From: Urechis unicinctus
Taxonomy: Eukaryota; Annelida; Polychaeta; Xenopneusta; Urechidae
NCBI GenBank assembly: GCA_034190875.2
Contig: CM067350.1
Location: forward strand, 25,803,456-25,867,455
Direction of reading: 5' to 3'
DNA: 64,000 nucleotides
This document shows positions 23,106 through 54,891 of the stretch, in pieces. The notes beneath the pieces were generated by a model that searched no databases, was not told where the DNA came from, and saw only the letters and a program-made list of their open reading frames with translations. Position 1 is the stretch's first letter, and each line of letters starts with the position of its first letter. The translations under genes were made by a program, and so were the position numbers.

Positions 23106-24060
23106 TTTTTTAAATTGACCCCAAATTAACCATGTTATCCTGGATTTATCGATAAACAATGATTCAGAAGCTTACCAACGCAACAGGATGAACACTGGCA
23201 TCATTGAGTTCTTAATCTTCGTTGTGATCATCAGTGATCATCAGTGATCATATGAGAAACTTTTAAAATGTCCAAAATTTACCCAAACTTTACCAAGTTA
23301 CTATGCATTTATCGATGATCTTATATTTCATTCGATGTCCTTGCATATTTTATTAAATAGTACCGCGGCCTGCCATACATGCCACGCCCTGCGACCCGAG
23401 GGCGGATCTGTGGCGGCCTTTGTGCTAAGGGCTTAGTCTGGCTATTGACAGCAGTAATTGCCGGGTCCAAGGTGAATTCGGGATAACTCATGCCTGGTGC
23501 GAGCGCCACGCATTGCTACTCTGCGAGGCAAACAGCGGTCATTAAAAATGTGAGTGTCAATAGATTTACTGACACTCCGTTAGCGTCGTGGCAATTGAAC
23601 AGTTTCCGCCACCTATTTCTGGAACTACTAAGCTTGTAGGTTTGAGTGTTTGGAAATCTCGAACGAAAATATAACCGAAACGATAGTTAAGCTTTTTGTT
23701 TTTACCTGCGAAATAATGTATGAGAATTCAATCGTCATAACTGTTTAATTTGTGTTTTTTTTTATTTTGTTATTGTTGTGCGCGTTCGTCGTTACCGTCT
23801 TTGATCGAAGTTGGATGTGTTAAATTCAGAATTCGTGCCACTCGGTCCTGCGATTTTTATGGCCCTTTGTTTGTTGGGGTTGGGATGATGTGAGGGTGTA
23901 TATAGGGAAAACGCAATGTTTTTGTGAATTTCTATTTGCGCTCAAAGGTTTATTTCATTCCTGGTGCATTTTGGGAAACGCATATCGCTACAACTAGTCT
24001 GAATAATATACTGCTTTGGTGAGCCACCTGAACATGTCGAAGAACAATGTTGGAAAGTTA
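23106..24060 (+). repeat. Second tandem family, diverged copy
   Basis: The segment parallels 20341-21440: TCGATAAACAATGATT, CAACGCAACAGGAT, GTTAGCGTCGTGGCAA, CACCTATTTCTGGAA and the shared 3' words. It also contains TAGTACCGCGGCCTGCCATAC (23358-23378), a phrase otherwise found in the GC-rich patches of the first family. The two families have therefore exchanged sequence or share an origin. Confidence 0.55.
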
Positions 24061-26560: not shown

Positions 26561-27171
26561 CCAATCCAACTTGCAATAAGGGTGTTTATTCAGATTATAT
26601 TATTGTTATGGGATGGGGCTCTTGAATTGCATATAGATAGTATGGTTCAAGTAAACCATGATCTTCTAACACATATTACCATTGCACTATGCCAGGTTGA
26701 CTTATTCTAATCTCTTCTAAGTATAAAGAGCATACACTGATACACTGCCTCAGGGTGGGAGTGGGGGGGTTTCAAGGAGTCGCGCAAATTTCACAGTTGT
26801 TATACAAAACCCATAGGCGAAACGTGAAACACGCCGCCCGCATATAAACGAAGGACCAGAGCGATCTGCAACGTGACATCATTGTTACACCGCAGTGCTT
26901 TCCTTTCACATCGCCCTTATGGCAATTATGACAGTTTGTACAAAGTTTACGTGGGGAAATAAAATCTTAGTCAAAGAATCTGCGTCGATATGATATTCTT
27001 CCCAATTGCAATTTGTGAGCTTCATTCCTGAGCCAACAGTGCAGACCAAAAGTTTATTTGATCGTGGGAAAAAGCGATACTGCGAAGCAGAATGATGCTT
27101 CAATTGACTGTGCACAATATATTGCCGGCCTTCTTGTTTTCATCATTCTTACTTACCTCGAACATTGTGTA
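26561..27171. other. Apparently single-copy AT-rich DNA, nothing recognised
   Basis: A short G-run (GGGGGGG near 26765) and no repeat shared with the rest of the window. A 69-codon open frame on the minus strand (26906-27115) matches nothing I know and is near chance length. Confidence 0.4.
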
Positions 27172-27176
27172 TCATT

Positions 27177-27315
27177 CAGGGATGTGATTTGTCCGCGGAT
27201 TTCCGCGGATCCGATGACTCCAGTTTTGCTTCGCTTCGCCCCCTTTTTAAGCGGCCCCCAAACCCCTCGTCGAAATAATTTCAGCCCTTCAGCTGCCAGG
27301 GCAATCACATCCCTG
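27177..27315. mobile_element. 139-bp MITE with 13-bp perfect terminal inverted repeats
   Basis: The ends are CAGGGATGTGATT (27177-27189) and AATCACATCCCTG (27303-27315), exact reverse complements. They are flanked on both sides by TCATT (27172-27176 and 27316-27320), a likely 5-bp target duplication. The interior is more GC-rich than its surroundings and holds the word CCGCGGA twice. The CAGGG start recalls hAT-type ends, but hAT makes 8-bp duplications, so the superfamily is left open. Confidence 0.75.
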
Positions 27316-27320
27316 TCATT

Positions 27321-28076
27321 TCATAGAATGGTTTTTTGAGGTTTATGGATTCAAGAATTTCAGATTTGGGTTTATCAACCTGTTATACACAATAAGATGG
27401 CTAATGATAAAAATGAACTTGTTAACACCCTTTTGTATGCCACTCATATGGTTTAATCATTGATGTTTTGAAAGGAAACCTTAACCCATTAACTGCTTTT
27501 AATGACTTGAAATTCATAAATGTTATGATTCAGAGATGCCACCAAGGTTAAAGAGGGGTCCAGCCCCATATTTGGAACGAGGTTACCTAGTATGTTGCTT
27601 AGCAACCGCTCTTTGAGAACCAACAGTTTTTTAAAGTTTTTTTAGACTTTTACTCATTGCATGGCGCTATAATCTCTGAAAATAGATCCACCACCATTGT
27701 TGTTGTTGGAAATAGCCTTCGCGTACATATTGGTGTCATTTTTGTGGAATGTTGTGATGGATATAAAACAAATCTTGGTTATGATGATTTTATCTATGGC
27801 CCATCCCTACTGACTTGGCTGATGGTATATGACACATCTTTTATTGAAATATTCGTGAACATAGGGGTTGAGGTGTGGCAGTGAGGTTTCCCTTGAGGGT
27901 CCGGGCAACACATTCGCTGTTAAGTGAGGAGGAATACTCCCAACTTTGATTTGTATTATAGGGTATGTTTTGGGGACAAGTTACTAAATAGCTTGTGGGT
28001 GTAGCCCACAACTTTAACTGTGTTAAAGATAGTTTTGTAGAAACAAGCTGATCCCTGATTGCCTTATATTGGGCTG
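27321..28076. other. Non-repetitive AT-rich DNA with an X-box-like site
   Basis: No gene recognised. At 27594-27606 GTTGCTTAGCAAC is a near-consensus RFX X-box palindrome. Short open frames here have no recognisable content. Confidence 0.35.
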
Positions 28077-28108
28077 GAACCTCTCTTTTATTGATAAAAG
28101 AGAGGTTC
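28077..28108. repeat. Perfect 32-base palindrome (15-bp arms, 2-base centre)
   Basis: The left arm GAACCTCTCTTTTAT and the right arm ATAAAAGAGAGGTTC flank TG. The arms are exactly complementary. No copy was noticed elsewhere in the window. It could be a transposon-end hairpin or an inverted duplication. Confidence 0.7.
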
Positions 28109-29180
28109 AAGTCTATGAGACTGATCACCTAGTGAGTCCTATAAACCCGGCATGCTTTCAATTGACCATTGGCACCATATAATACAGGAGTGTTGGTGTG
28201 CCGTTAAGCCCTATACTCACTCAATGGACCATTTTATACCAGTGTATAAAAGTAAATAGTGTCAATGGCAAAAGATATTTGAGCAGTGGTAACTCACCAA
28301 ACTCCTTAATTACTTTGATGTTTAAAAGCTGCATTAAATCTTCATATTTCTTTTTTCGATTCTATAATTTACAGCACAGAGACAAGGCAAGAGTATGGAC
28401 CCATTAGTAGGGTAGAATATGCGAGTGATTGGGGGGACCTGATTACATAGACTTGAATGAACAGAATTGAAATATAATACAATAGTGTTGCAAATATGTC
28501 AACTCTTTCCTCCTCTTGCAACTTGTTGATAACAATAAAAAGTAACTAATTAATATATCTTGATTGAAAGACAACTATGGTAGTTGGTATGAATGTAAAT
28601 TCTATTCATTGACAGAGAGTGATATTTCAATATTATACTTGTATTAAACAGTTGCTGATTAAAATTGCTTGGACAGTGTAATGTGCTATGGCTTGTATCG
28701 GTGTCTTTTAGACACTGGCTTTGAGGGCTGATAACTTGAAAACTAGTATTGCTCTTTTTGGAAAAAGATATGTAATTGTTTGATGTATTTTGTCCAGGTT
28801 GCCTTTACCATATATATATGCTCCATTATCATTGTAGCTACCACATATGTAATATTCAGTTACTCTTAATATCATAAAGAAAAATTTAGTTGAGATGATA
28901 AAAATACAGAATCATCATAACAACAATCATAAAATTTTGTATTCACTATCATTTGTATTAATTAACAAAATGTTTGATTAAGTTGATATCATTTCATATG
29001 ATGGAACTAGTCAACACGACAACCCAAATGGATGAATTTAGTGGTACCATGTGTATTTCATATGATGAAACTTTTGGAATTATTGATAACATGTGTTTCC
29101 TTATTGTGATATCATAATGCTTAACAAAGTGTATTGTTTTGTCTGTGTACCAGGTGGATGTTCCTTGCCCTTTACCAATC
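28109..29180. other. Non-repetitive AT-rich DNA, no gene seen
   Basis: No long open frame, no similarity to the two satellite families, and no tRNA-like boxes noticed. Confidence 0.35.
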
Positions 29181-29319
29181 AAGTCTAAGTGCCTCGACTT
29201 TGTGTGTTTGTGTTTCTGTGTGTTCCTGTGGACTCCTGCTGCTGGGATCTGGTGTTCCCTGTGACTGGGCTCACAGTTCCCTTCATTGGGAATTCATGTA
29301 CACTAAGTCGGGGGATAAG

Positions 29320-29890
29320 TGCCCGCAAACCACGAACTTTGTGTGCTTGGTTTTGAACCCCACATTGTTCAGGAACTTGTGCGTTTGGTTTACACCCCAC
29401 ATATTCCACAAATTCCCAAGCACAGGGGGAATGAGCACCTGTGCAGATTAGGAACGTGTGCGTTTGGTTTATGCCCCACATTTTCCATAATTCCCAAGCA
29501 CACAAATTCCATCAATATCTTGAAAAAAAGTGAATCTATTGAAAAGCAATTACGAACTTGTGTGTTTGTTTTATACCCCACATTTTTCAGGAACTTGTGC
29601 GTTTGGTTAATACCCCATCTTTCCATAACTTCTTGAAAAAAGTGAAGGGGGAATGAGCATCAAATATTGAAAAAGTCAATCTGTTGAAAAGCAAACCACG
29701 AACTTTGTGTGCTTGGTTTTGTAACCCCACATTGTTCCGGAACTTGTGCGTTTGGTTTTATACCCCACATTTTCCACAAATTCCCAAGCACAGGGGGAAT
29801 GAGCATCTGTGCATATCTTGAAAAGTCAATCTGTTGAAAAGCAATCCTTGAACTTTGTGTGCTTGGTTTTGAACCCCACATTGTTCACCT
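29320..29890. repeat. Minisatellite built on GAACTTGTGCGTTTGGTTT..ACCCCACAT
   Basis: The core CCCCACAT or a close variant occurs about eight times (for example 29370, 29395, 29474, 29574, 29613, 29726, 29763, 29873). It alternates with AATTCCCAAGCACAGGGGGA and GTCAATCTGTTGAAAAGCAA. The larger unit is roughly 170 bases. Open frames on both strands (about 105 codons) are made of these repeats and do not look like a gene. Confidence 0.6.
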
Positions 29891-30119
29891 GTGAATATCT
29901 TGAAAATTACATGTTATTTTTATTATATGAAGAGATTTAATAAATTATATTGCTTATTGCTTGCAAAAGTTAAAAGCATATTTAATTTCTATAGTCTACA
30001 ATATATTGATATTTATTTTTAAGAGCTTGTCTTCATTGCATTGGTTATAATTTATTGTGAACATATTAAAGTTTGCTTTGTAGCATACTAATCATTGCGT
30101 CAATGCATAGTAGTCTTGA
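29891..30119. other. AT-rich DNA upstream of the Helentron, no feature seen
   Basis: Low-complexity AT-rich sequence between the minisatellite and the TCATARCG cluster. The Helentron 5' end may lie here, but I cannot place it. Confidence 0.3.
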
Positions 30120-30124
30120 ACGGT

Positions 30125-30291
30125 TCATAACGCAATTTAGATCATAACGTGTGGTAGAAGCCATCGCATCAGTTTGATCATAGCGTTGAAATTAGTAAGT
30201 CATAACGTTCTTTTATGTGACCTGTTCTATTCATCATAGCGTCATTCGGGTATTAGTCAACGTATTTCACTGGCTACATTGGATCATAGCG
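30125..30291 (+). promoter_or_regulatory. Cluster of six TCATARCG motifs upstream of the Helentron ORF
   Basis: The 8-mer TCATA(A/G)CG occurs at 30125, 30142, 30178, 30200, 30234 and 30284, all in the same orientation, within 167 bases of otherwise AT-rich leader. Related pieces (GTCAACG, GCGTCA) lie between them. Iterated short sites upstream of a Rep gene could be binding sites for Rep, for the STPR-like domain or for a host factor. This is inference; no known factor is assigned. Confidence 0.45.
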
Positions 30292-30429
30292 CAATCTGCT
30301 TCGTTCCATGTTGACAACTGAGACAACGTATTCTTGTTGATTTGACTTCTTTAAATTGTAATTATTTATTGAAATATATCGTTGCTTTGGTCGTTCAATC
30401 TGCTCATTGTACAGAACTCATAAGATTAG

Positions 30430-30436
30430 TATAAGA
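30430..30436 (+). promoter_or_regulatory. Possible TATA box of the Helentron gene
   Basis: TATAAGA lies about 65 bases upstream of the ATG at 30497 and downstream of the TCATARCG cluster. Position and sequence fit a core promoter, but AT-rich DNA gives such matches by chance. Confidence 0.3.
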
Positions 30437-30496
30437 GGACAACTTTACACACATCCTTGATTATACAACTGTATACTGTTTATTAAAGACTGTGAT

Positions 30497-30800
30497 ATGG
30501 GTAAATGTGGTAAAAAGAGTGCAGACCAAAAGAGAAAGGAACAGAAACTAAAGAGACAAGCAATCAAACAAACCAATGAAGGAATAGCCAAAGTTCAACC
30601 ATGTAAAAATAGAAATAAATATATGAAATCTTATATGAACCAATTAAGAAGTGAGGAGACATTTGAACAGAAACAAACTAAACTTGAATCTGCGAGGAGT
30701 CATATGGCTAAACTGAGATCAAATGAATCTAATGAACAGACACAAACTAGGCTTAAATCTACAAGAAGTTATAAGGCTGAACGAAGGTCAAATGAATCGA
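30497..30800 (+). CDS. Helentron protein, piece 1: basic N-terminus and first STPR-like 23-residue repeats
   Basis: The ATG at 30497 opens the long coding region. The first 50 residues are very basic (MGKCGKKSADQKRKEQ...). Then come 23-residue repeats of the form LRSNESNEQTQTRLESxRSH. The period and the R/E pattern match the STPR (score-and-three amino acid peptide repeat) DNA-binding fold known from silkworm FMBP-1 and seen in Helitron-like proteins. The frame is lost near 30799: the expected repeat codons ...GAATCTAATGAACAG appear as GAATCGATGAACAG, one base short. The reading then runs into a stop at 30830-30832, while the same repeats continue in the next piece. Confidence 0.8.
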
Positions 30801-32812
30801 TGAACAGACACGAACTAGACTTGAATCTGTGAGAAGTCATATGTCTGAACTAAGGTCAAATGAATCTAATGAACAGACTAGACTTGAATCTATGAGAAGT
30901 GAATCTGAACTGAGGTCAATGAATCTGATGAACAGACCCAAACTAGACTTGAATCTAAGATCAAATGAATCTGAATCAAATGAACAGACACGAACCAGAC
31001 TTGAATCTGTGAGAAGTCATATGGCTGAACTGAGATCAAATGAATCTAATGAACAGACCCAAACTAGACTTGAATCTGCGAAGAGTCATAAATCAGAACT
31101 GAGATCAAATGAATCAAATAAACAGACACAAACCAGACTTGCATCTGTGAGAAATAGAATGGGTGAACTCAGGTCAAATGAATCTGCTGAAAAAAGACAA
31201 ACAAGACTCTCATCTATGAGATCAAGTGTGGCAAAAGTGAGATCAAGTGAAACTCCAGATAAAAGACTCGAACGATTAGAAACACAGAGAGAATCAATGC
31301 AAGTCAGGAGACGTGTTAAGAAACAGGTCATACCAACATGCCAAGCTGTTGTTGAGCAATATCATAGGACTGTAAAGGATACTTGTGACTATGTCTGCAT
31401 CTGTTGTCATAGACTGTTGTACAGGGGGGCAGTTGTGGAATTTAAGGAAAAAAAATATGAGAAAATACCTGAAGCTTTGTTGAAAAGCATACTGAATCAT
31501 CGAATTGTATCAGCTGGAAATAAAGAGTGGATTTGTGAAACCTGCCAAAGGACAATAAAGCGTGGAAAGATGCCAGCACAATCAAAAGCTAACAAACTTC
31601 ACTTGGTGACTCCTCCAGTTGAACTAAATGATCTCAACACATTGGAAGTTAGATTGATCTCAAAGAGAATTCCATTCATGAAAATGGTTGGTTTGCCTCG
31701 AGGTAGACAACATGCGATTCATGGACCAGCAGTTAATGTTCCATCAAAAGTCGATGATGTTTGTCAACAATTTCCTCGATTGCCTTCTGAAATGCAAATG
31801 ATTCCATTGAAACTAAAACGCAGACTGAAGTACAAGTCCCACTACATGTATGAGTATGTTAGACCCTCAAAAGTCATGGATGCTCTGAGGTGGCTTAAAG
31901 CAAACAATGCCTTGTATAGTGATATTCACATCAATGATTCCTGGTCAGAAGATTCTGTCAAAGATAATGCAGATTTGTGGCAAGCAATGACAGAGTCGCG
32001 TTCAGATGATAATGGAGGTCACGAGTCAAATCCCGCAAAACAAAACTCTGAGAAAATGGAATGTAATGAGGTGGATTCAAACCCAAGAGAGTTTACTGAT
32101 GTGACACAAGGCATTGAAAGAATGGAAAGTGATGAGATGGAACCAGAATTATCAGCTTCAAATGCTGTGATGCAAAACTCAAACAGAGTAACAAATGATG
32201 AGATTGAATCAGAATTGGTTGTCACACAAAACCCAGAAAAAATGGAAACTGATGAGGCAGAATTAGAGTTGGCTGAGTATAATGTTGAAGCACGGGACAG
32301 GGGAAGATTGGACAATGATTTGATGGAATCTGATTTGCCTAGGAAAGAAACTGATTGTGAAACACGAGTGTCCATTGAAGAAGACAAAACCAAAGCAGCT
32401 TTATCCAGCTGTCAATGGGTAGGAAGGCATGTTGTCAACACAACTTCTAAGCAAACTAGTTTTGCCCTTCATGATGTACCAAGAGATGGCAATTGCTTGT
32501 TTGCATCTGTCTGTTATCATTTAGATACAAAGAGAGTTTTCACAACAACACCAACATTACTGAGACAACAATTAGCCAAGTATATGTCCCACCATTCAGA
32601 GAATTACAAAGAATTTGTATGTGCAAGAATTGAGACAGACAATGTCATGAATGCAGACACAGAACAACCAAGAGAATTAGACAATGCCATTGCCAATGTG
32701 ACTGATCAAAGAGACAGACAAGAAATACAATGGGTGACATATCTAGATGATCTAGAAAGTGGAAATCAATGGGGAGAACATATATCATTACAAGCCATGG
32801 CAGATATGTTTT
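30800..32812 (+). CDS. Helentron protein, piece 2: STPR-like repeats, Cys-rich/DUF6570-like region, acidic repeats, OTU N-part
   Basis: Counting codons from 30829, residues 1-160 hold about seven more 23-residue repeats. One of these, at 30919-30957, has a one-base loss rescued by a larger deletion. Cysteines CxCC (residues 190-193) and CxxC (236-239) suggest a metal site. Residues about 339-365 (YMYEYVRPSKVMDALRWLK) match the DUF6570-type region found in Helitron proteins. Residues about 395-505 are an acidic stretch with some five imperfect copies of a KMExDEAELEL-like unit. From residue 540 an OTU protease begins, with D553-G-N-C556 (catalytic Asp/Cys) and WGEHISLQAMADMF. The frame breaks in the T5 run at 32809-32813: four T would keep it open. 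OTU may process the polyprotein or act on ubiquitin; its role in Helentrons is not settled. Confidence 0.85.
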
Positions 32813-33716
32813 TCTCTTCATGTTGAAATACATAGATCAGAGCCAGACGAAATCATAACGTTATGTTCAAGACACAAATGTGAGCACATATTTCATCTAG
32901 CACTTCAGGGACAACACCACTATGATGCCCTTGAACCAGTCACTGTACAAAACATTACCTTGAACACAGGTTCTACAATGCAAAGTGCAAATGTACAATG
33001 TGATGAGTCAGAGAAAGAAAAAGCAGAGACTGTTGAAGATGACAGTGCTTTTGAAGATACTGCAGGTGTCTGTGGACTACCTTATGAGACAAGCATGATC
33101 AATACAAACCCTGACATGACATGCAAAGTGATCAACGTTGCTCCTGCTGAGTCCGGGAAACCAATGCCTCTGCTTACTGATCCAAATTTTGAAGAGCTAG
33201 CTAATCCTGACAAATATCCTGATGGTTTGAATGCTCTGTCTACAGAACGCACGGTCAAGTTACTTCCTCGCAAGTACTTTAACCAAAGACTTTTGGATTG
33301 TGATGGAAGGTTTGCTAAATCAATTGAATATCTACTCAGTGCTCAATACGCAGTAGAGAATGCACAAGTCCAAAGCATCATCAACCACGTAGTGTTCCGT
33401 AGAGCACAAGGCACTATGCATGGAGGAAAACCACTGACAGTTGGTGATGTGAAAAAATTTGATACTATTGGAAATTTTATCAAAGTTGACCATGCTTATC
33501 AAATTTTGAAGAATGTGAGAGGATCACCTGCATACTTTCAATCTCTTTATTATGATGTTCTGGCAATGGTTAGACAACTTGGAATTCCTACTTGGTTTTT
33601 CACTGTTTCTGCAGCAGATATGCAATGGCCCGACTTGATACAGAGTATAGCCCGTCAATATGGAAAGAAATTGAGTGACGATGATGTGAAAAACTATCTT
33701 TTGAGGAAAGAAGCAT
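32813..33716 (+). CDS. Helentron protein, piece 3: OTU C-part and Helitron-like N domain
   Basis: The piece continues directly from the OTU domain (SLHVEIHRS...). It supplies the expected histidine in HHYDAL (32915-32932), so Asp, Cys and His of the OTU triad are all present once the frame change is allowed for. After a polar linker the Helitron-like N domain starts near LLPRKYFNQRLLDCDGRFA and ends around IPTWFFTVSAADMQWPDL (33583-33630), a hallmark of Helitron Rep proteins. The frame changes near 33711-33722, just before the conserved NPV-ARHF motif, and is consistent with loss of one base. Confidence 0.85.
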
Positions 33717-35290
33717 GTGGTTGCGAACAAACCCTGTCACAGCTGCACGCCATTTTCAGTATAGACTGGAGGTATTATTCAGAGATGTTCTCAAATCAAA
33801 AGCACACCCAATTGGAGAAATTGTTGAGTATGCTATCAGAATAGAGTTTCAAGCCCGTGGCTCACCTCATGCACACACCTTATTGTGGGTCAAAAATGCT
33901 CCCAAACTCGATGAAAACTCTGATGAAGAAATCTGTGAGTTTGTTGAAAAACATATCTCAGTGTCAAAGGCCCAAATAGAAAACACAGATTATGTATCTA
34001 AGCTACAAAGTCACAAACACTCTGCTTCATGTCGTAGAAAGGGGAAATGCAGATTTGATTATCCTAAACCACCAAGCCCACAAACACTCATCGCAAGAGA
34101 ATCACAAGATGCAGATAAAATCAAAGAAGCAGAAACTGTGCTTGAAAAGGTCTATAAAGTGATGAGTGATAAAGAAACACCAGCAGACATTTCTCTGGAT
34201 GAATTGCTAGGGAAAGCCAATGTAAACACTGATGACTACATCAAAGCATTGAAAGTGTCAGAAAAAGGAACACACATTGTGTTACAACGTCAACCATGCG
34301 ACACCAACACCTCTCCTTTTAATCCAACCATCTTGCAAGCATTCCTGGCCAATACAGATTTGCAGTTTATTGTGGATGCATATGCATGTATCATGTACAT
34401 TTGTTCCTATGTGACAAAGAGTGAAAATGGCATGGGTCAGTTGTTGAAACAAGCAGCTAATGAGTACAAAGACAGAGAAGTGAGGGAAATGTTGAGATAT
34501 GTTGCATCCACATTTCTAAACCACAGAGAATTGAGTGCACAAGAAGCAGCGTACAGAATCCTGTCAATGCCCATGAGACGACTGAGCCGAAGGGTTATTT
34601 TTGTAGACACAAATCCTAAGGCAGAACGTAGTGCAGTTTTGAAACCAAATTATCAGCTGGAAAACAAAGAGGATTGTGATGAAGATATCTTTCAAAAGAA
34701 CATTGTGATCAGATATGGTGCTAGACCATTGGAACTTGAACACATGTGTCTCGCTGAATTTGCTAGCACCTACACTGTTTCACTTGTTGAAAGAGAATCT
34801 GATCAGGACGATTCTGTACCAGTTGTACTTGATGAAAATGATGAGTCAATACCACAAGAAAGACCTGAACTGCCCAAACGCATTGTGCTTGCAAACGGAA
34901 TGGGTCAAATGCACAGACGTAAATGTCAGGCTGTTATACGATTCAAAAAGTACCGTTCAGCAGATGATTCAAGCAACTTCTACAGAAGCAAGTTGATGCT
35001 ATTTGTACCATGGCGAAATGAAGATCGAGACTTGCTAGGCACTTACGGCGACTTCCGCACACACTATATTGCTAGGAAAGATGAATGCATGGCAATAGAA
35101 AGGCAGTTCACACAAAACATGGAATTGATTGACGAAGCTATTCATGAACATGCAGTCAATGGTCCACCAGTTCACATGTGGTCAAACATAGCTCCCCAAA
35201 CAGAACAACAAGATTCTGAAGACCGTGCTGAAGGTTTTGAATTAACAAGAGACATAGAACAGGAAGATCTTGATGCTAATGCTCAGCTAA
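33717..35290 (+). CDS. Helentron protein, piece 4: HUH Rep nuclease with two tyrosines
   Basis: The piece begins WLRTNPVTAARHFQYRL, the conserved lead-in to the Rep core. The HUH metal motif is H-A-H in RGSPHAHTLLW (33868-33876). A Cys/His cluster (HKHSASCRRKGKCRFDYP) follows. The catalytic pair is Y-ICS-Y with a following lysine (tyrosine codons at 34396 and 34408, YICSYVTK), as expected for a two-tyrosine Helitron Rep that nicks and rejoins single strands. All catalytic residues are intact. The C-terminal part (MGQMHRRKCQAVIRFKKYR) matches the Rep-helicase linker. The frame changes near 35285-35295, consistent with one extra base in CTAATTG. Confidence 0.88.
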
Positions 35291-36628
35291 TTGAACGCCC
35301 AAGTGGCAAACCATCCAGACATTGTGTCTCGATATGAATCAGTTGTTGATAAAGAAAGAATTTCTCCTCCTGAATATAGAGAGATGGTGCGAAAATTGAA
35401 TACTAAGCAGAGGCAGATTGTATTCTATCATAGACAATGGTGTAAGAGAGCAGTCATATCAATGAAACAGGGCAAACGTGTTGAACCATACAGAGTATTT
35501 TTAAGTGGTCCAGGTGGGGTTGGTAAAAGTCATGTCATAAAGCTGATTTGTTCTGACACCAAGAGAATTCTACCACTGTCCAATCAGATGAAACCCACTG
35601 ATATGATGACTCTTGTAACAGCACCCACGGGCGTAGCTGCATTCAATGTAGGAGGCTTGACTATTCACTCTGCATTATTGCTGACAACTGGAAGATTTTG
35701 TTCTAATGAGTCACTCACATGTGAAAAACTGAATTCTCTCCGCATGAAAATGGAAAATTTGCACTTGATGGTCATTGATGAAGTTTCCATGGTTGGATCA
35801 GACATGCTATTAGCCATACACAAGAGACTAAATGAAATCAAAGGAGTGAAGGATGAAACCACGTTGTTTGGTAATGTGTGTATTCTAGCAGCGGGTGACC
35901 TATACCAACTTGCTCCAGTGAAACAAAGTCACATTTTTGACCCTGTTGGTAACCCAGTTGCAAGATTATATGGTTCACTGTGGAAGCAAGACTTTCAATT
36001 ACATGAACTTGATGAAATCATGCGACAGAAAGATGACTCATTCTTTGCAGATTTGCTCTGTAGATTGCGAACAGGGGAGTGTACTGAAAGTGACTTGAAA
36101 GTGCTTCAGTCCAAAGAGATCAGACATGGTGATGCAAATTACCCCAAAGACATCCTACATGTATTTGCCTTGAATCGTGATGTTGATTATTGGAATGCTG
36201 AGAGATTGAACGCTCTTGCTCCTAGACAAGAGGACCGTGTCATTATCAAAGCAGTTGATGATAAAGGGGACAGCACAGGGCTCATTGATTTGCAAAACAT
36301 TGGTGGATCCAAATCCCGTACAGAAACTGGAGGACTACACACAATACTAGAGCTTTGTATTGGTGCTAAAGTAATGGTTGTATACAATGTGGATACATCA
36401 GATGGTTTGGTCAATGGTGTCATAGGAACAGTCACTGCAGTTATCATGGATAACTCACATAAAGTGTTAGTTGTATTGGTTAGATTTGACAATGAGAATG
36501 TTGGCAAAAAAGCAATTGCTGCTAGCAAATGGAAACGCCAATATCCAGATTCAGTCCCCATTGTTCGACTTGAAGGTCACTACGAAAAAAACAAGCGAAA
36601 AGGTGCAAAAGTTGCTCGACGTCAATTT
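35291..36628 (+). CDS. Helentron protein, piece 5: Pif1-family SF1B helicase
   Basis: Walker A is GPGGVGKSH (35507-35533), Walker B is LMVIDEVSMV (Asp and Glu codons at 35777 and 35780), and motif III is GDLYQLAP. These are the Pif1/RecD-type signatures of the helicase fused to Rep in Helitrons, which unwinds the donor strand during rolling-circle transposition (family knowledge). The order and spacing look normal. The piece has no ATG at its junction with piece 4, so it is a continuation and not an independent gene. The frame is lost at the T5 run 36626-36630, right before helicase motif V: three T, or one more C after it, would restore it. Confidence 0.88.
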
Positions 36629-36629
36629 T

Positions 36630-37230
36630 TCCACTTACTCTGGCATGGGCAGTTACCATTCACAAATGTCAAGGTCTCACTGTTGAACAAATTGTTGTCA
36701 GCATGAAGGAAGCAGCACTATTTGGCAAAGGACAAGCTTATGTTGCATTCAGTCGAGTAAAGAAACTGTCAGGTCTTTATATCACCGATTTCAATGCCAA
36801 AGCTATCAAGACAAATCCAAAAATTGACGATGAAATGAAGGAAATGCAAACAAAGTGCATACCACAATTTGATTCACCAAGTCTTATTGCACTGAGTTAC
36901 CCAGAATGGTTGACAGTCGGCCATCTTAACATAAGACATTTCTTTGACAAACTAGTTGACCTGAAATGCCTGGAAGAAAAGAAAATTCTGTCCCAAACTG
37001 ATGTAATGTGTTTCACAGAAACATACCTCACTCCTCAGCATGACATAGATGATTTCCTGAAAGAGCATGATTACGTTTCTTTCCAAGAAAACATTCCATC
37101 CCAGACTGATCATAATGGCCAGCATGGCATCATGATATGCGCTTCAAAAAGACTGCAACCAATTGCACTAGATAAGATCAAAGTTGCTGGATTAGAGTCA
37201 TCTGTTGTTGCCTTAAATACTTCCAATCCC
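36630..37230 (+). CDS. Helentron protein, piece 6: helicase motifs V-VI and EEP endonuclease N-part
   Basis: Read from about 36631 in the new frame, the piece starts PLTLAWAVTIHKCQGLTVEQ, the expected SF1 motif V, and continues with motif VI in AYVAFSRVKKLSGLYI. After a short linker it enters an endonuclease/exonuclease/phosphatase domain: VGHLNIRHFFDKL carries the domain's first Asn, and MCFTETYLTP carries the metal-binding Glu. This domain resembles those of non-LTR retrotransposons and is diagnostic for Helentrons. The frame breaks in the C5 run at 37228-37232: four C keep it open. Confidence 0.87.
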
Positions 37231-37570
37231 CCGTATAGTTGTGGCTGCGGTGTACAGAAAACCTTCGCAATCTATGACCAGTTTCGTACAACAGATGGAA
37301 AAACTATTACTCCTTATGCCTTTGCAAGTGCCAACGTTTGTGCTTGGAGATTTCAATGATGACCTTCTGCAAGGTAACACTTCAATGTTAATTACTCTGA
37401 TGGATGGATATGGTTTCCAACAACATGTCAAAGTGCCTACAACTGACAATGGAACATTACTAGACCACATTTATTTCAACCGAGAAGCAGAAAGCCACAT
37501 TGATGTCCACGATGTGTATTATTCTGACCATGACTCAGTGTTTATCACCTCTAACGTGACGTCATATTAG
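37231..37570 (+). CDS. Helentron protein, piece 7: EEP endonuclease C-part and natural stop
   Basis: The piece continues VVAAVYRKPSQSMTSF and contains VLGDFNDDL (catalytic Asp/Asn pair), LLDHIYFN and YSDHDSVFI (the terminal SDH motif). All core EEP residues are therefore present. It ends at a TAG stop at 37568-37570. If the six frame changes are ignored, the whole protein would be roughly 2,350 residues, a plausible length for a Helentron Rep-helicase-endonuclease. Confidence 0.87.
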
Positions 37571-37630
37571 AACAAATGTTTTCAATGTAATTAATAAGAT
37601 TGAAATGAGATACAATTGCTATATATAATC

Positions 37631-37636
37631 AATAAA
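37631..37636 (+). terminator. Possible polyadenylation signal of the Helentron gene
   Basis: AATAAA lies about 60 bases after the stop codon at 37570, in AT-rich DNA. The position fits, but chance matches are common here. Confidence 0.35.
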
Positions 37637-37640
37637 ATGA

Positions 37641-38890
37641 TCAATGGTTAACGGATCAATAGGTTATTTAAGAGATTATATCTAATTAAGTTCAATCAAA
37701 TGTGGTCTAAGTATTGAATAACATCTTAATATAAGCAAATCATATTATTTATTTCAACAATTGTTAGCATCTAGTAAATTATTTCTATGCAAGAATTATT
37801 TACGTTATTTATGCAATAGGTATTGATTTTTTTTGTTTATAAGAGGAACCTATCATATAAATCATTGACATTGGTCATGATTGAGCCGTACCACACCCCA
37901 CTACGCAGATACACGAGTAAAATGAGCGAAAGTTATCACCAAAACATCTTCATAGAGACTATCACTAGAGAAAATTTAATGTTGTACAAATTATGATTGA
38001 TTGGTTAGTTAGTTATCCAAGTGATAATTGCATCTACAACCAAGATGATCTATGATATGTTTTATTATTTAGTAAATAACATTTATTCAATATAGATCAA
38101 CTTGAATTTATAACAACAATTGCTTGAATCTAATTTATAGGTCATTTACATCATAAGTATTTATGTTATATATGCTATAGCTATGAAAGTTTTATGTTAG
38201 CCTGATAACCAGACAAGATTCATTCCGATTGTAGGTCTAGTAAGACTAGGAAGCTATTATATGATTATGAATCGTTAACTATTCAATACATTCCACTTTC
38301 ATGTGAGCAATGGCTTTCATTTTATATAAATGATCGCTCTGACGTTTGCAACCTCAAAACGGAACCTGATACAGGCCATGGTCTACGAATACTACCCACT
38401 ACCACCAACCCGCGATAACAATGCCAATGGGCGATAATAAAGGATGACAAAAAACATCTTCAAAGAATACTCGGTGCCGTCAGTTGACATAATTATGACC
38501 AACAACCCATCATAAACAGCACAACTTAATATAACTGATGTTGCCTCATTAAGAATCCGTGAAGTGACATGCTGGTAACGAAATCGGAACTTAATCTTTG
38601 TTTATCGACTTTACGAGCGACTGGCCGGTTATTCACGGGATCGGGCCAACTCGTACCCAGACCAAGTCATACTCAAACCAACTAGTATCCTCTGCATCAG
38701 CACATTCAACTCCTTCTTCTTGCGAATATACATCTTGGTTGGTGTGAAAATGAATTATGTGATATCACAATGCATTATGCGATATTATAAAGTAGAAGAT
38801 ACCAACGAATGGATGGTGTCACAACCCAACTTGAAATCCGGTCAATTTTAAAATTGTCCTAAGTCCTGCCCCTTTAGGCTTTACCCACAG
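37641..38890. other. AT-rich DNA downstream of the Helentron, no gene seen
   Basis: May include the Helentron 3' end. A small hairpin CTAGT-AAG-ACTAG lies near 38238, too short to call a terminus. No satellite sequence is present. Confidence 0.35.
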
Positions 38891-39360
38891 AGGGAGGAAA
38901 GGGTTGGGGTGGTGTCACGCGAAAGCTGTATCAGTGAGTTAGGTAAGTCAATCAACGACTTTGTAGTAGTTAGGATTTTCTTTAATATTATAATTTCACA
39001 TTGATGGATAAAATGTGACATTCTTTTTTGCTGCAGAAAAAAAAATCAGCACAGGAAAAGAACTGGCGTGGACTGGGCCTGTTGAATAACAGATTGCCCC
39101 ATATTAGTCGCCACCTACGACAAGCCAGAACCCTTCATCTAGAACCTCAGCGGGAGATAAAGGGTAGGGTGGTGGTCACAGAAGCTGAGTCTGTGAGTAA
39201 GGTAAGTAGATCAATGACTGTGTAGTAGCATGGCTTTTCTTTAATATTATAATTTAACATTGATGAATAAAAAAAGGCATTCTGTTTTTTAGCTGTAGAA
39301 AATAAGATCAACATAGGAAAAGAGAAAATTACTTCATCAAGTGTTCCCTCATCCCTGAAT
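38891..39360 (+). repeat. Tandem duplication (~262 bp) with exon-like 55-codon block
   Basis: Two copies of an arrangement: GGGTGGTGTCAC-type sequence ending in a GTAAGT donor-like site (38943 and 39202), an AT-rich intron-like stretch (TTTAATATTATAATTT), then CTGCAG or CTGTAG as acceptor-like site (ending 39036 and 39298). The segment 39037-39201 is exactly 165 bases, open in one frame, and would encode 55 residues beginning KKKSAQEKNWRGLG. Product unknown. It could be duplicated exons of a host gene, or chance. Confidence 0.35.
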
Positions 39361-39700
39361 ACATCAGCTGCAAAGATATACTTCATGGTGTGAGGTGATC
39401 TATTGAGTAAACTAAATACAAAGTGAGCGCTCTGAAATGCTTACTTCTTTATTGTCCAATGTGAAGTTGGTAACTAAACATGCCCCTTGTCATACAAAAC
39501 GTGCTATTCAATACTAAAATACAGATATTTTGCCTGGACAGGAAAACAAATGAACGGACAAGATAGTTAAACATGTTAACGGATTGGACTGCTCCAGGAA
39601 GCACGACATGCCTCCTCTGTTGTAATCAACCCTCGAACCAATGAGAAGCAGTAAAACCACAGGAAAGCAATGCTAATGTTTCACATTATTATAAGTGTGA
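39361..39700. other. Non-repetitive DNA, nothing recognised
   Basis: No gene or repeat that I can support. Confidence 0.3.
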
Positions 39701-39715
39701 TGGAATTGACATAAA

Positions 39716-39875
39716 ATCTGAGTGCAGACAACGTTGTATTATAATCGTAGCACTGCCCTGAGACTTAATATCCGGAGGGAAATTGAGATCTGAGTGCAGG
39801 AAACACAACATTAAATTCATAGCCCTGCCCAGAGGCTTTAAATCCGGAGGGATATTGAGATCTGGGACAAGGCAA
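39716..39875. repeat. 72-bp minisatellite, about 2.3 copies
   Basis: ATCTGAGTGCAG recurs at 39716 and 39788, with a diverged third start at 39859. Each copy includes a GCCCTG..AGxCTTxAxATCCGGAGGGA stretch. Related words occur once near 38840-38890. Confidence 0.6.
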
Positions 39876-39889
39876 CAGTCAGAGTTCAT

Positions 39890-40500
39890 AAGAAATTTAT
39901 GACCATAGTATTACGCCTATATATTTGTTGATAGGTTGTTCTTTAGTTCATATGTCTATGCAAACTGATATATTATGAATAGTTTCTTGAACCATATGTA
40001 TTTCTTGTATCACCTAACTTAGTATATAGCTGGGATGATTGAAATAAATTTAGCTAATCAATAATGTGATTACATTGTTTTTCTACAAATATATCAGGGA
40101 TAATCTATTTATGATGTTCAACAACAACCTGCATACCCATGCATAACATTACCATGAAATAAACATGAGACCTGACATCATCTGTCAACAAGTTGTTGCG
40201 TTTCATTATCATATATTTCATGCACCACTATTATATTTAAGACAACGCAGTGCTAACAATGCAGTGATGAAAGATGATTGTGATGTTAATACATAGCTTT
40301 ACCATTAATAGCTTTGATTAATTGATTGAACAATTATCCTGGTGGAATTATTTTGTATATAGGCATTATTTACAAGTACATGCATCAAGAAGGTTGGCAA
40401 TTGTATTATACTGCAACAGTATGTTAACACTTAAAATCGATATCATCTAGGGAGATATTAGGAACTAAACTTATATCATAAATTTCACCATTGCATCGTC
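39890..40500. other. AT-rich DNA, nothing recognised
   Basis: No open frame or repeat of note. Confidence 0.3.
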
Positions 40501-40520
40501 AATTGTAGACTGTAAAGCAA

Positions 40521-40557
40521 ATTCCCGAATAGGGCTAATAAATTATCTTATCTTATA
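40521..40557 (+). mobile_element. Possible 3' tail of a non-LTR retrotransposon or SINE
   Basis: TTCCCGAATAGGG forms a small CCC-GGG hairpin, directly followed by CTAATAAATTATCTTATCTTAT. A hairpin then an AATAAA-like word and short tandem repeats is the usual 3' end of several invertebrate LINE and SINE families. No coding part is visible upstream, so this would be a short 5'-truncated copy. Confidence 0.35.
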
Positions 40558-40559
40558 TA

Positions 40560-40850
40560 CATGCTCTCGCTAAATCATTATGATGACAATCACTAAAACA
40601 CCGACAATATCATAGCGCTAGTATTGCTTTTCAATTTTCGAGCTACCACAAATCTTAATTTACGGGAAATCGATTGATTATTGTAGTAATACTGAGCATC
40701 AATATTTGATTATAATTCTGAAGAACTTCAAGTTATTAGGCAAGAAAGGTTTTACCTTTTGTTGGCATCTACTGTACTAATACTTCGATAAAACATTTAA
40801 CAATTTTGTGTTCGACCGCGTAGCAACAATTTTTTTTTCATCTGAACTTA
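40560..40850. other. AT-rich transition into the right satellite block
   Basis: No feature noticed before first-family sequence resumes around 40900-40925. Confidence 0.3.
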
Positions 40851-40899
40851 TGAGAAGGCGATCGGGAATTTACAGCTGCATGTAATTACTTACTTCGGT

Positions 40900-42232
40900 C
40901 CGAAATAAACGCGCTATCTTCAGATTTCAGTCCAGTTTTAACTTTGATTCGCCTTTGTTCAGCGCGACACGGAGGCTGTGATTGACAAGAGCCAGCAGAA
41001 GTGACACCCGCTGTACTTCAAGCTTACTTTGTGTGAAAACTGTTAGGTATTTAGATCATAAAATTTGAGTCTTATGTTCAGAATTAAATGGGCTTCCTTC
41101 GAGTGTAGACAAATTCAAGATACGACCATTCACGACGGACGAACGATGCTATAACTTCTGATTTCAGTCCCTTTTTAAGTTTGATTCGTTCAAAACCGGA
41201 AGTGACGCAACCGATATCAATAAATTTTGCGGATTAGATTCGCGCTGTTGATGTCAACATCTGATTTAATTTTTATCACCATTGAACTGATATTTACGAT
41301 TTTATTAGCAATCGAAAATTTTACGAAAATTGACTGAGTGAAATTTGTTTTTTCAACTCAATGCGCTTTGAAAAGGACAAATATATTGATTGCATATGTC
41401 AATTATGAAAGTTTGGTAATTCCATCAGCTTTCAGAAAATGTAAATTTTGTTACGATCGGACCATAATTAATGAATCTATTGCGAAATTAATAAGTTTAG
41501 AGATTTTGGCTACCAGAAATTTTCGACATGCTACGATTTTTTTTACGATGCATTATTTACAACTAAGTATATTTAGAAAAAGTTTACAATTACATTACAC
41601 TTTCAGAATATGTTGACTGTATTGATATTTAATTGTAAAGCATGGACATATTGAGCATTGAACTTGTGTCATTTTTTATAAACTTTGATGCTTTCGTGAC
41701 CGGAAGTGACGTCATCGACATTCATGAAATCTATGGATCCGACTTAAGCTGTCATGGAGCACATGTGACCCAATTTTTATCATTATCGGACATGTATTGA
41801 CGGTTTTATAGGCGCTCAAAATATTCATGAAACTTATGTTGTCATTCTGACCGATACCACGATTTTTCGACCTGGGGTGCTTGGGAAAACCGTTGGTTAG
41901 ATGGCCCCATATGTCATATGAAAAGTTTGCAATTAGAATGAGCTACACGATGATGTAAATTATGTAACGATCCGACCATTATTAACGGAGTTATTTGAGA
42001 TACTAGTTTTTCACTTATTCGATGACCTTGACCTTAGTTTTAGGTCAAGGTCAAAACAAAACCTCTCGGTTCTGCGCATTATTCACGCCTAGCGATTGAA
42101 GAAACAATCAATGAAAATATCAAAAATTGCGACCTGTATCGCGAAACAAAAAAATGTTAACTAACATCCAAACAAACATCCAAACATACATACCGGGCCG
42201 ATCGCCATAACTTGGCGTTATGACGCCAAGTT
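40900..42232 (+). repeat. Satellite segment with M5 and M1-variant modules, ending in a hairpin
   Basis: Enters the family mid-unit near CAGATTTCAGTCC. M5 (variant motif near 41197) and M1 variant (exact motif at 41700) are followed by a perfect inverted repeat at 42023-42053. The hairpin at 42209-42232 is the shortest of its kind here (arms AACTTGGCGT/ACGCCAAGTT, four-base loop). Confidence 0.65.
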
Positions 42233-49635: not shown

Positions 49636-51099
49636 ACAAGAGGCCCATGGGAGCCATGTGGGAACTTGGCGAACTGCATCCAAATAATTGCAACATTTTC
49701 AGAACCGGGCCACAATTGACCAAAATCGGCCAAAAGTTACCTAAGTTATCATGGTTATCAAATTTTCGAGTGCGGGCTGCGGGGCGAAATATGCACAATT
49801 TATCATGACAATTGATATGAACAATTGGCCAATAAATCATGCTACAAGGAACTATAAATCTTTTTAAAGTCGCACCATACGTTAGGGTGATATCAAGGAT
49901 TGAGGCAAGGTTATCATGACCGGAAGTGACATCATCGACATCCACAATATTTAAGGATACGTCTTAGTATGTCTCGGAGAACATGTAAACCAATTTTTAG
50001 TACTATAGGACATTTATTGGTTGTTTATATGCGTTCGAAATATTCATCAAACTATTGTTGCCATTTGGACTGATCGCTCGATTTTTCGACCTTAGACGCC
50101 TGGGAAAACCGTGGGTTGGATGGCATCATATGTCAATAGAGGTACACAATGGTGTAAAATTTGTAACAATCCGACCATTATTAGCGGAGTTATTCGAGAT
50201 ACTAGTTTTTCACTTTTTCGTTGACAACTATCTTATTTTTGGTCATGGTCAAAACAAAACGTATCGGTTCTGCGCAACATTGCCGCCTATCGATTGAAGA
50301 ATAAAGAAATTAATAAAATTGTAGTATTGTCAACCAATTTTTATTAGCAACGGTTATGTAGGTCCGTATCCAAGAGGGTGACGGGTGAATCGGACAATAC
50401 CCCCCACTCAGCCTCAGTATTTTCGCTCATATGCCAAATTTATCCTTTAATCTTGGTCAGAATGGCAGCGTATGCTAGAAGATCTGCTTAGCTCATTTCA
50501 GATAATCCCTACATTAATTCCTAGTAACGGGTCTGAAGTTTACAATTACATTACACTTTCAGAATTTTAAGGTGTTTTAATATCAAATTATTATGCCCGT
50601 ATATATTAAGCAGTGAATGCGATTGGCCAAGATTACTAGGCGAATACAATTTCGCGATATTAACAATAGTCTCATGGTAAGTTAAGAATTGAGTTAGCCG
50701 CGGACGGTGGTAATATAAATTTATACCGGCGGCGTGCACAGCTAGAATTGGGTGGGCTTCCATAAAACTGTTTTCCGGGTTCATGATAGATTGACATTGA
50801 TTTAGCTGGCAAAAAGAAATTAATAATATATTAATAAGTTTCGCGGCGTGCCATAGTTGCCGCGTAAATGTCGTAATAATCGGACATTGGACTGGTCCGT
50901 ATTGCTGCTTGACGGCTTAACGCAAAGCGAGCTGGCAGCAGCGGTGACCTTTGTGAAACTATCAACCTTAAACATTCATTCAGAAGCCAAACAACATTAA
51001 GCAATAAAAAATCCGTATCAACCTATAATTAACAAAATTACAATGGATTTATCAATCATGTTGAGTGTTTAGCTGTTGTTGGCACCTGTAATACTTATT

Positions 51100-51126
51100 A
51101 ACTTGGCGTTATCATAACGCCAAGTT
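51100..51126. repeat. Terminal hairpin, perfect form (13-bp arms, 1-base centre)
   Basis: The arms AACTTGGCGTTAT and ATAACGCCAAGTT are exact complements. The same form occurs at 7852-7878, 10478-10504 and 44385-44411. Forms with 10-11-bp arms are at 2293-2319, 5620-5646, 13458-13484, 48860-48886, 48909-48935, 54865-54891, 59153-59179, 60631-60657 and 62498-62524. It always marks the 3' end of a unit. Confidence 0.85.
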
Positions 51127-52182
51127 ATGGCGATCGGCCCGGTTTGTAAGTTTGTGTGTTTGTGGGTGTGTGGGTGTGTGTGTTTGTTTGTTTGTTAACA
51201 ATTTTTTGTTTCGCGATACAGGTCGCAATTTTGGAAATTTTTCAATTTTTTCTTCGCCAATCGTTAGGAGTCAATGATGCGCAGAACCCAGATGTTTTGT
51301 TTTGACCTTGACCCAAAACTAAGGTCAGGGTCATCGAATAAGTGAAAAACTAGTACCTCGAATAACTCCGTTAATAATGGTCCGATCGTTACAAAACTTT
51401 ACACCATCGTGTAGCTCATTCAAATTGCAAACTTTTTCTAAATACATATACGGCGATCCAACCAATGGTTTTCCCAAGCGTCTAAGGTCGAAAAAAAGTG
51501 GTATCGGTCCAAATGGCAACAAAAGTTTCATGAATATTTTGAGCGCCTATAAAACCGTCAATACATGTCCGATGGTAATAAAATTTGGTTCACATGTTCT
51601 CAGCAACATACCAAGGCGTATCCTAAAATATCATGAATGTCGATGACGTCACTTCCGGTCACGAAAGCATCAAAGTTTTCAAAAAATGACACAAGTTCAA
51701 TGCTCAATATGTCCATACTTTAGTGTTCCATTTTTAAAACAGTTTAGATATTCTGAAAGTGTAATGTAATTGTAAACTTTTTCTAAATATACTTAGTTGT
51801 AAATAATGCATTGTTAAAAAAATTGTAGCAGGTCGAAAATTTCTGGTAACCAAAATCTCTCAACGTTTTAATTTCGCAATAAATTCACTAATTATCGTCC
51901 GATCGTAACAAAATTACCATTATCTAAAAGCTGACACAGTTACTAAACTTTGATAATTGACATACGCTATCAAAATATTCGTCGTTTTCAAAGCGCGTTG
52001 AGTTGAATAAACAAATTTCACTCAGTCAATTTTCGTCCAATTTTCGATTGCTAATAAAATCGTAAATATCAGTTCTATAATCATAAAAATCTGCTCAGCT
52101 GTTGTCATTGACAGCACGAATCGTGTTCTATTGAAATTAGATGAAATAATTGTTGTGGCACGAAAATTGGGAAAAAAAATTA

Positions 52183-52258
52183 TGTCCGTGTACTGGATTT
52201 GAACACCGGCCTCTGGCATGGAAGTCTAAAACATTCCCGCTACGCCACGCGGCCTAGC
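52183..52258 (-). pseudogene. tRNA(Trp)-like Pol III cassette, copy 10 (in the inverted unit)
   Basis: Both boxes read on the minus strand, followed there by a T8 run (A8 on the plus strand near 52172). Confidence 0.6.
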
Positions 52259-53779
52259 ACACTAGCATACATTGTCATATATGAATAATAACTATTACAG
52301 GTGCCAACAAGAGCTAAACACTCAACATGATTGATAAATCCATTGTAATTTTGTTAATTATAGGTTGATACGGATTTTTTATTGCTTAATGTTGTTTGGC
52401 TTCTGAGTGAATGTTTAAGGTTGATAGTTTCACAAAGGTCACCGCTGCTGCCAGCTCGCTTTGCGTAAAGCCGGCAAGCAGCAATACGGACCAGTCCAAT
52501 GTCCGATTATTACGACATTTACGCGGCAACTATGGCACGCCGCGAAACTTATTAATATATTATTAATTTCTTTTTGCCAGCTAAATCAATGTCAATCTAT
52601 CATGAACCCGGAAAACAGTTTTATGGAAGCCCACCCAATTCTAGCTGTGCACGCCGCCGGTATAAATTTATATTACCACCGTCCGCGGCTAACTCAATTC
52701 TTAACTTACCATGAGACTATTGTTAATATCGCAAAATTGTATTCGCCTAGTAATCTTGGCCAATCGCATTCACTGCTTAATATAAACGGGCATAATAATT
52801 TGATATTAAAACACCTTAAAATTCTGAAAGTGTAATGTAATTGTAAACTTCAGACCCGTTACTAGGAATTAATGTAGGAATTATCTGAAATGAGCTAAGC
52901 AGATCTTCTAGCATACACTGCCATTCTGACCATGATTAAAGGATAAATTTGGCATATGAGCGAAAATACTGAGGCTGAGTGGGGGGTATTGTCCGATTCA
53001 CCCGTCACCCTCTTGGATACGGACCTACATAACCGTTGCTAATAAAAATTGGTTGACAATACTACAATTTTTTTAATTTCTTTATTCTTCAATCGATAGG
53101 CGGCAATGATACGCAGAACCGATAAGTTTTGTTTTGACCATGACCAAAAATAAGATAGTTGTCAACGAAAAAGTGAAAAACTAGTATCTCGAATAACTCC
53201 GCTAATAATGGTCGGATTGTTACAAATTTTACACCATTGTGTACCTCCATTGACATATGATGCCATCCAACCCACGGTTTTCCCAGGCGTCTAAGGTCGA
53301 AAAATCGAGGGATCAGTCCAAATGGCAACAATAGTTTGATGAATATTTCGAACGCGTATAAAACAACCAATAAATGTCCTATAGTACTAAAAATTGTTTT
53401 ACATGTTCTCCGAGACATACTAAGACGTATCCTTAAATATTGTGGATGTCGATGGTGTCACTTCCGGTCATGATAACCTTGCCTCAATCCTTGATATCAC
53501 CCTAACGTATGGTGCGACTTTAAAAAGATTTATAGTTCCTTGTAGCATGATTTATTGGCCAATTGTTCATATCAATTGTCATGATAAATTGTGCATATTT
53601 CGCCCCGTAGCCCGCACTCGAAAATTTGATAACCATGATAACTTTGGTAACTTTTGGCCGATTTTGGTCAATTGTGGCCCGGTTCTGAAAATGTTGCAAT
53701 TATTTGGATGCAGTTCGCCAAGTTCCCACATGGCTCCCATGGGCCTCTTGTTATTTATATATGACAATGCATACTAGTG

Positions 53780-53828
53780 TGCTAGGCCGCGTGGCGTAGC
53801 GGCATAGTCTTAGACTATGTACACGGAC
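53780..53828 (+). pseudogene. tRNA(Trp)-like Pol III cassette, copy 11, B-box deleted
   Basis: The A-box-like word TGGCGTAGCGG is kept. About 29 bases including the B-box are missing between TTAGACT and the ACACGGAC end. The T8 run remains. It lies about 28 bases past the inserted unit. Confidence 0.6.
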
Positions 53829-54891
53829 ATAATTTTTTTTCCCAATTTTCGTGCCACAACAATTATTTCATCTAATTTCAATAGAACACGATTCGTGCTG
53901 TCGATGACAACAGCTGAGCAGATTTTTATGATTATAGAACTGATATTTACGATTTTATTAGCAATCGAAAATTTGACGAAAATTGACTGAGTGAAATTTG
54001 TTTTTTCAACTCAACGCGCTTTGAAAACGACGAATATTTTGATAGCGTATGTCAATTATCAAAGTTTAGTAACTGTGTCAGCTTTTAGATAATGGTAATT
54101 TTGTTACGATCGGACGATAATTAGTGAATTTATTTCGAAATTAAAACGTTGAGAGATTTTGGTTACCAGAAATTTTCGACCTGCTACAATTTTTTTAACA
54201 ATGCATTATTTACAACTAAGTATATTTAGAAAAAGTTTACAATTACATTACACTTTCAGAATATCTAAACTGTTTAAAAATGGAACTCAAAAGTATGGAC
54301 ATATTGAGCATTGAACTTGTGTCATTTTTTGAAAACTTTGATGCTTTCGTGACCGGAAGTGACGTCATCGACATCCATGATATTTTAGGATACGTCTTGG
54401 TATGTTGCTGAGAACATGTGAACCAAATTTTATTACCATCGGACATGTATTGACGGTTTTATAGGCGCTCAAAATATTCATGAAACTTTTGTTGCCATTT
54501 GGACCGATACCACTTTTTTTCGACCTTAGGCGCTCGGGAAAACCATTGGTTGGATCGCCGTATATGTATTTAGAAAAAGTTTGCAATTTGAATGAGCTAC
54601 ACGATGGTGTAAAGTTTGTAACGATCCGACCATTATTTACGGAGTTATTCGAGGTACTAGTTTTTCACTTATTCAATGACCCTGACCTTAGTTTTGGGTC
54701 ACGGTCAAAACAAAACCTCTCGGTTCTGCGCATCATTGACGCCTAGCGATGGGTGAAGAAAAAATTGGAAAATTTCAAAAACTGCGACCTGTATCGCGAA
54801 ACAAAAAAAAGGTTAACAAACATACATACATACATACAAACATACAAACCGGGGTGATCGCCATAACTTGGCGTTATGACAACGCCAAGTT

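Follow-up and report, generated by a model that had tools for sequence, protein, structure and literature searches.

A probable HINE in reverse orientation within another unit of its own family in Urechis unicinctus

Helentrons and their non-autonomous partners, the HINEs, are described as carrying palindromic subterminal inverted repeats, a 3' palindrome and a microsatellite, and as inserting at TT or T-rich sites without modification of the target, with paralogous empty sites (PMC4067079, PMC7492417). HINEs as well as their nested and tandem forms have been described before, and elements of this kind are known from animals, including oysters; oyster elements have been found inserted within others, and plants possess rolling-circle arrays of truncated Helitrons (PMC12628747). 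For the FoHeli elements of Fusarium, circles with joined ends have been suggested, and reversal of the transposase gene has been proposed to begin with the insertion of one copy into another in opposite orientation (PMC5148889). A Rep gene in minus orientation is documented for Helentron-Da-40 (Thomas et al. 2014, PMC4067079), and further cases of antisense Rep are given in PMC5148889. In the portions of the open-access literature covered, no paper was found on the element family treated here or on an autonomous partner of bivalve HINEs.

We analyzed a window of 64,000 nucleotides from U. unicinctus (CM067350.1, positions 25,803,456 to 25,867,455, forward strand; hereafter, the window), in which an earlier note had described a complete satellite unit inserted backwards into another unit. 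The anatomy of this segment, positions 51100-53752, fits HINEs, the non-autonomous partners of Helentrons. We assign a probability of about 0.88 to the reading that it is a HINE, that is, a rolling-circle transposon without an enzyme of its own that a Helentron mobilizes in trans. The insertion is precise, the ends are fixed, copies are dispersed beside unrelated DNA, and Helentron genes are present in a unit with matching ends.

With the HINEs and Helentrons of PMC4067079 the family shares subterminal repeats, 3' palindrome, microsatellite, TT target, lack of target modification and the presence of a candidate partner of the Rep-PIF1-endonuclease type in the genome. It differs from them in a shorter subterminal repeat (9-11 bp, as against the 12-15 bp published for the mite in that paper), in its long head-to-tail arrays and, compared with most Helentrons described there, in the antisense position of Rep at most assigned loci. 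Compared by description, Cg_HINE from the Pacific oyster (PMC7492417) likewise has a 5' subterminal repeat with a complementary inverted repeat and a microsatellite, a 3' subterminal repeat with a palindrome, TT sites without duplication and insertion into repeats; its tandem repeats, however, are internal to the element, whereas whole elements are in tandem here, and its autonomous partner was reported as unresolved, whereas a candidate with matching ends is available in our case. Helitron2-like FoHeli elements (PMC5148889) resemble the family in that their terminal inverted repeats are asymmetric, Helitron2 inserts before T or C, copies are nested within one another and the transposase genes of some subgroups are reversed; they are fungal, one tandem case is mentioned, and reverse self-insertion is a proposal (Fig. 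8 of that paper), whereas here one is seen together with its empty site. Helraiser, a bat Helitron (PMC4778049), is likewise of the rolling-circle type and forms circles with precisely joined ends, like the array junctions reported below, but has canonical ends (5'-TC, CTAG-3'), unlike the element described here. In the window, one insertion of a rolling-circle transposon family of this 1.19-Gb genome can be seen clearly together with the corresponding empty site; it is a naturally occurring case of reverse self-insertion, accompanied by a candidate autonomous partner.

The insert, its host unit and its empty site

The features of the insert and the interrupted unit are as follows.

51100..53752, plus strand: probable HINE-type element, 2,653 bp, complete, reversed within a minus-strand unit
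49636..51099, minus strand: 3' part of the host unit, 98.5% identical to element positions 1187-2652
53753..54891, minus strand: 5' part of the host unit, element positions 1-1192
51100..51126, plus strand: 5' terminal hairpin including the 5' subterminal inverted repeat AACTTGGCG (from the sequence; motif genome-wide)
51143..51195, plus strand: GT-rich microsatellite-like stretch after the hairpin (by eye)
53716..53724, plus strand: 3' subterminal inverted repeat CGCCAAGTT (by eye; pattern counts)
53736..53743, plus strand: 3' palindrome CCCATGGG (by eye; fold of the last 60 bases)

The extent of 2,653 bp from start motif to 3' end proved exact, as the hairpin AACTTGGCGTTATCATAACGCCAAGTT starts at position 51100 and CCCATGGGCCTCTTGTT finishes at position 53752. 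On the left, the flank (49636-51100) corresponds to element positions 2652..1187 on the minus strand with 98.5% identity, and the right flank (53748-54891) to positions 1192..1, also on the minus strand, in three pieces (88%, 97% and 94%); the few bases by which the matches overlap at each edge are due to chance. Since the flanks match complementary parts of the element on the same strand, they are the two parts of one minus-strand unit. A complete plus-strand element therefore sits within it, in agreement with the backward placement noted earlier, and judged from sequence the insertion event looks real.

The hairpin at the element start is perfect, and the first 40 bases fold as DNA with -14.3 kcal/mol. 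Beside the nine pairs fixed by our search pattern, the inner pair is complementary in all 100 listed copies (T-A in 88, A-T in 12) and the next pair in 82 of them, the other 18 having a short-loop form. Because the inner pair stays complementary while varying between T-A and A-T, the hairpin looks as if it were under selection. Subterminal inverted repeats of which the 5' one is palindromic, a trait by which HINEs are recognized, are present as AACTTGGCG and CGCCAAGTT, with a length of 9 bp in the insert and, by eye, up to 11 bp in some variants. HINEs are further recognized by a palindrome 8-35 bp from the 3' end, and in this copy CCCATGGG ends 9 bases before position 53752 and is followed by the terminal CTCTTGTT; other copies vary. 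A tRNA-like cassette, which had been suspected near the insertion, was not confirmed: ARAGORN with the bacterial code reported no tRNA in the window, and Rfam gave no match at E<=1 in 49600-57000. Close to their 5' end, some units contain tandem copies of a ~350-bp monomer that corresponds to element positions ~102-451 (13057-13434 together with 10505-13035 in the window; further at C8:45533975-45536084; 11 of 4449 candidates were scored in the underlying DNA search of the genome), resembling the internal satellite-like repeats of known HINEs.

The joined flanks could be aligned over the junction with 21 homologous sites that are uninterrupted, taken from the window and retrieved loci and including the equivalent position within the insert itself. 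A stretch of 20 bases spanning the junction is free of gaps in 18 of these 21 sites and contains small indels in three, which bears out the view that removal of the segment restores an intact site as seen in paralogues. Neither duplication nor loss of bases was seen at the junction in this comparison, and the empty sites lend no support to the idea that the TTA shared by the edges is a 3-bp duplication. The left flank (..TTATT) and the element (..TTGTT) both end in TT, so the position of the cut is ambiguous by 2 bases. At the 19 sampled 5' ends with unmatched flanks (see below), T is invariably present at -2, whereas -1 is occupied by T (15 ends) or C (four ends); the TT or T-rich target without target-site duplication that characterizes HINEs is thus present here, though with C at -1 in 4/19. 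The region is repetitive, which could favor an assembly artefact as the source of the nested arrangement. Such an artefact would, however, require two errors placed exactly on both element ends while the host site was left complete; a false join of this kind seems unlikely, and we consider this explanation exceedingly improbable.

Dispersed copies and co-oriented arrays

A pattern consisting of the hairpin and the next bases, representing the 5' end, has 874 matches in the 1.19-Gb assembly (459 on the plus and 415 on the minus strand), and a 3'-end pattern has 558 (349 plus, 209 minus); the backwards control of the former and the control of the latter gave none. The orientation and hairpin counts given here rest on 100 listed 5' ends of the 874, that is, on part of the genome, and places of the 3' end on 100 listed of 558. 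Among the 100 listed 5' ends, 24 (12 plus, 12 minus) are isolated by the strict pattern, a definition that units with variant starts escape: two of the copies (L065 and L063) have further units after them, and L049 abuts one. In 19 of 20 isolated-looking 5' ends picked from the matches listed, the 200 bases upstream resemble neither the window nor those of the other ends; the remaining one, L049, adjoins the end of another unit. In a chosen sample of 35 3' ends, some taken deliberately from arrays, 20 are followed by sequence unlike the window, including one (L098) whose downstream flank begins with START-like AACTTGGCG, and 14 lead into another unit, 13 of them immediately and L089 past a short stutter. 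The last one (L095, C3:74911317-74911451) runs directly into sequence 93% like the window, which by eye resembles the interior of a unit; L095 may be a second case of nesting, here with both copies oriented alike.

Pairs of ends with unmatched flanks on both sides occur at C1:27118644-27120303 and C3:32748847-32751045. At C3:56515200-56521844 the outer flanks are unmatched as well, and two exact joints of END to START within it define three units, the first of which differs in hairpin type from the second and third; at all three loci the ends were paired as nearest on the same strand and the sequence was read at the ends. The search thus recovered, in the samples, other copies with the same clean ends beside unrelated DNA, and the proposal of a discrete mobile element with defined ends, rather than a mere product of unequal crossing over, stands. 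A family of satellite DNA only is excluded by the 24 isolated ends among the 100 listed (by the strict pattern) and by the unrelated flanks. The designation as a satellite unit is accurate for the array form but not as an identity, which is that of a probable HINE, a non-autonomous Helentron.

The repetitive array, together with the 96-98% identity of the insert to neighboring units over long stretches, could also suggest that a local inversion or template switch turned one unit around without any transposition. We reject local inversion, as nothing is missing from the host unit once the insert is removed and each breakpoint coincides with an end of the element; the site is moreover intact in 18 of 21 homologous sites, and elsewhere these ends adjoin unrelated DNA. 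Inversion or template switching is consequently very improbable, and transposition of a HINE is the reading that we follow.

The other 76 of the 100 listed 5' ends group into 12 clusters when gaps of at most 25 kb are allowed, and all 64 neighboring pairs in these clusters are co-oriented; six of the pairs are stutters of <100 bp, and when these are omitted the result is 58/58 in 11 clusters. The backward insert is best read as an independent jump, separate from array growth, since clustered copies are co-oriented whereas isolated copies occur in both orientations (12 plus, 12 minus). Neighbors have the same hairpin type in 25 of 64 pairs, compared with a mean of 15.6 after shuffling within clusters (p 0.0004); without stutters, the numbers are 22/58 and 15.5 (p 0.005), and 36/58 pairs differ. 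Because most neighbors differ in hairpin type, no single process explains the arrays, and a purely rolling-circle origin is rejected: sharing of hairpin types lies above chance, yet most neighbors differ. We argue that the arrays grow by a directional process, be it concatemers, end-to-end insertion or unequal exchange. The "satellite" arrays are built here of whole mobile elements, and the contrast between co-oriented arrays and isolated copies in both orientations renders the question of how Helentrons become satellites testable.

In part of the array C3:45257192-45302139 the spacing of end motifs is near-regular at ~4.16-4.17 kb, and in the array C1:59843463-59875189 end motifs alternate at 1.8-2.2 kb; the near-regular spacing in both arrays suggests higher-order repeats.

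Helentron genes and a candidate autonomous partner

The same array contains a much longer unit.

23047..42232, minus strand: 19.2-kb unit with matching ends, Helentron genes on the opposite strand
30829..37359, plus strand: broken Rep/helicase frames (Helitron_like_N, PIF1, OTU, DUF6570; Pfam)

The first 996 bases of this unit are 85% identical to element positions 1-1023, and at its terminus the subterminal repeat, palindrome and CATCTCGTT are arranged as in the element. A copy on C15 is 98.9% identical to this terminus along the final 455 bases, beyond which it passes into other DNA of the family. We regard the unit as a candidate for the autonomous type, now broken. Rep lies antisense to the element termini, the last frame (36703-37359) has no Pfam match, and an endonuclease was not detected in the broken Rep/helicase frames of the window. 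On C7 (L036), an unbroken frame of 2,340 amino acids comprises a Rep domain, PIF1 and a C-terminal Exo_endo_phos domain, and its Rep motif RGSPHAH (GSPHAH) carries the S given as Helentron-diagnostic in PMC4067079; this locus therefore combines the features by which Helentrons are defined, namely Rep with G-S-P before HxH, PIF1 and a C-terminal AP-type endonuclease. At the start of the Rep region in the window there is a 69-bp (23-amino acid) repeat array (30611-31265) that gives a match to STPRs in Pfam; the many alternative alignments obtained suggest that Rep loci differ in how many copies of the repeat they have.

The exact 3' end of the Rep unit in the window has 209 matches in the assembly, of which 100 were listed, on C1-C10, with coverage ending part-way through C10; Rep matches on C1-C10 were merged into 53 loci. 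Thirteen of these lie within 20 kb of a listed 3' end compared with ~0.3 expected for an even spread, a weak null because Rep loci and ends both lie in arrays; for the other 40 there is no listed copy of the exact 3' end within that distance. Eleven of the 13 are upstream and antisense and two upstream and in the same sense, and within 30 kb the figures are 14 upstream antisense, three same sense, one downstream and 35 without a listed end. We infer that the enzyme would be supplied by the Helentron family to which this Rep unit belongs.

Terminal hairpins and inverted repeats are common to Helentrons, canonical Helitrons and TIR transposons including MITEs, and lack of a duplication fits canonical Helitrons as well (PMC7492417), such that a derivative of one of the latter classes could be envisaged. 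The ends (AACTTGG... and ...CTCTTGTT) and the TT/TC target do not agree, however, with the 5'-TC and CTRR-3' termini and insertion between A and T of canonical Helitrons, TIR elements are recognized by terminal inverted repeats with a target-site duplication, which is absent here, the repeat at the 3' end is subterminal, and the Rep in this genome has the Helentron signature and the endonuclease. We therefore reject both assignments; together they are highly improbable, and a Helentron derivative is retained.

A possible route of insertion and array growth

For the HINE, the following course may be envisaged. The Rep-helicase of a related autonomous element would nick one end, and one strand would be peeled off as far as the opposite end, probably yielding a circle in which the ends are joined. 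The copy would then insert at a T-rich TT/TC site without duplication; in the case described here, the target would have been a unit of a head-to-tail array of the same family that was already in place, and the copy would have entered it in the opposite orientation. The joint between array units, TTGTT/AACTTGG, has the form of the precisely joined ends of circles as found for the bat Helitron (PMC4778049) and suggested for the Fusarium elements (PMC5148889).

The insertion at 51100-53752 can be read as a first step of the reversal path proposed in PMC5148889. A more tentative extension, which we consider possible but rather doubtful, is that nested insertions are later mobilized as composites, so that the orientation of Rep would flip by self-insertion, and that arrays may in addition grow by orientation-specific end-to-end insertion at TTGTT/AACTTGG. 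If so, the reverse self-insertion with its empty site and the units with antisense Rep would represent both ends of the proposed path, and end-to-end insertion at the joint would turn a rolling-circle transposon into a satellite.

Three stretches of ~300 bp in the window (42233-42553, 60658-60976 and 21461-21753) each lie between two outward-facing 3' ends, one a reverse-complement END and the other a plus-strand END with a partial duplication; they are possibly the fossil of an older reverse self-insertion that spread with a subfamily.
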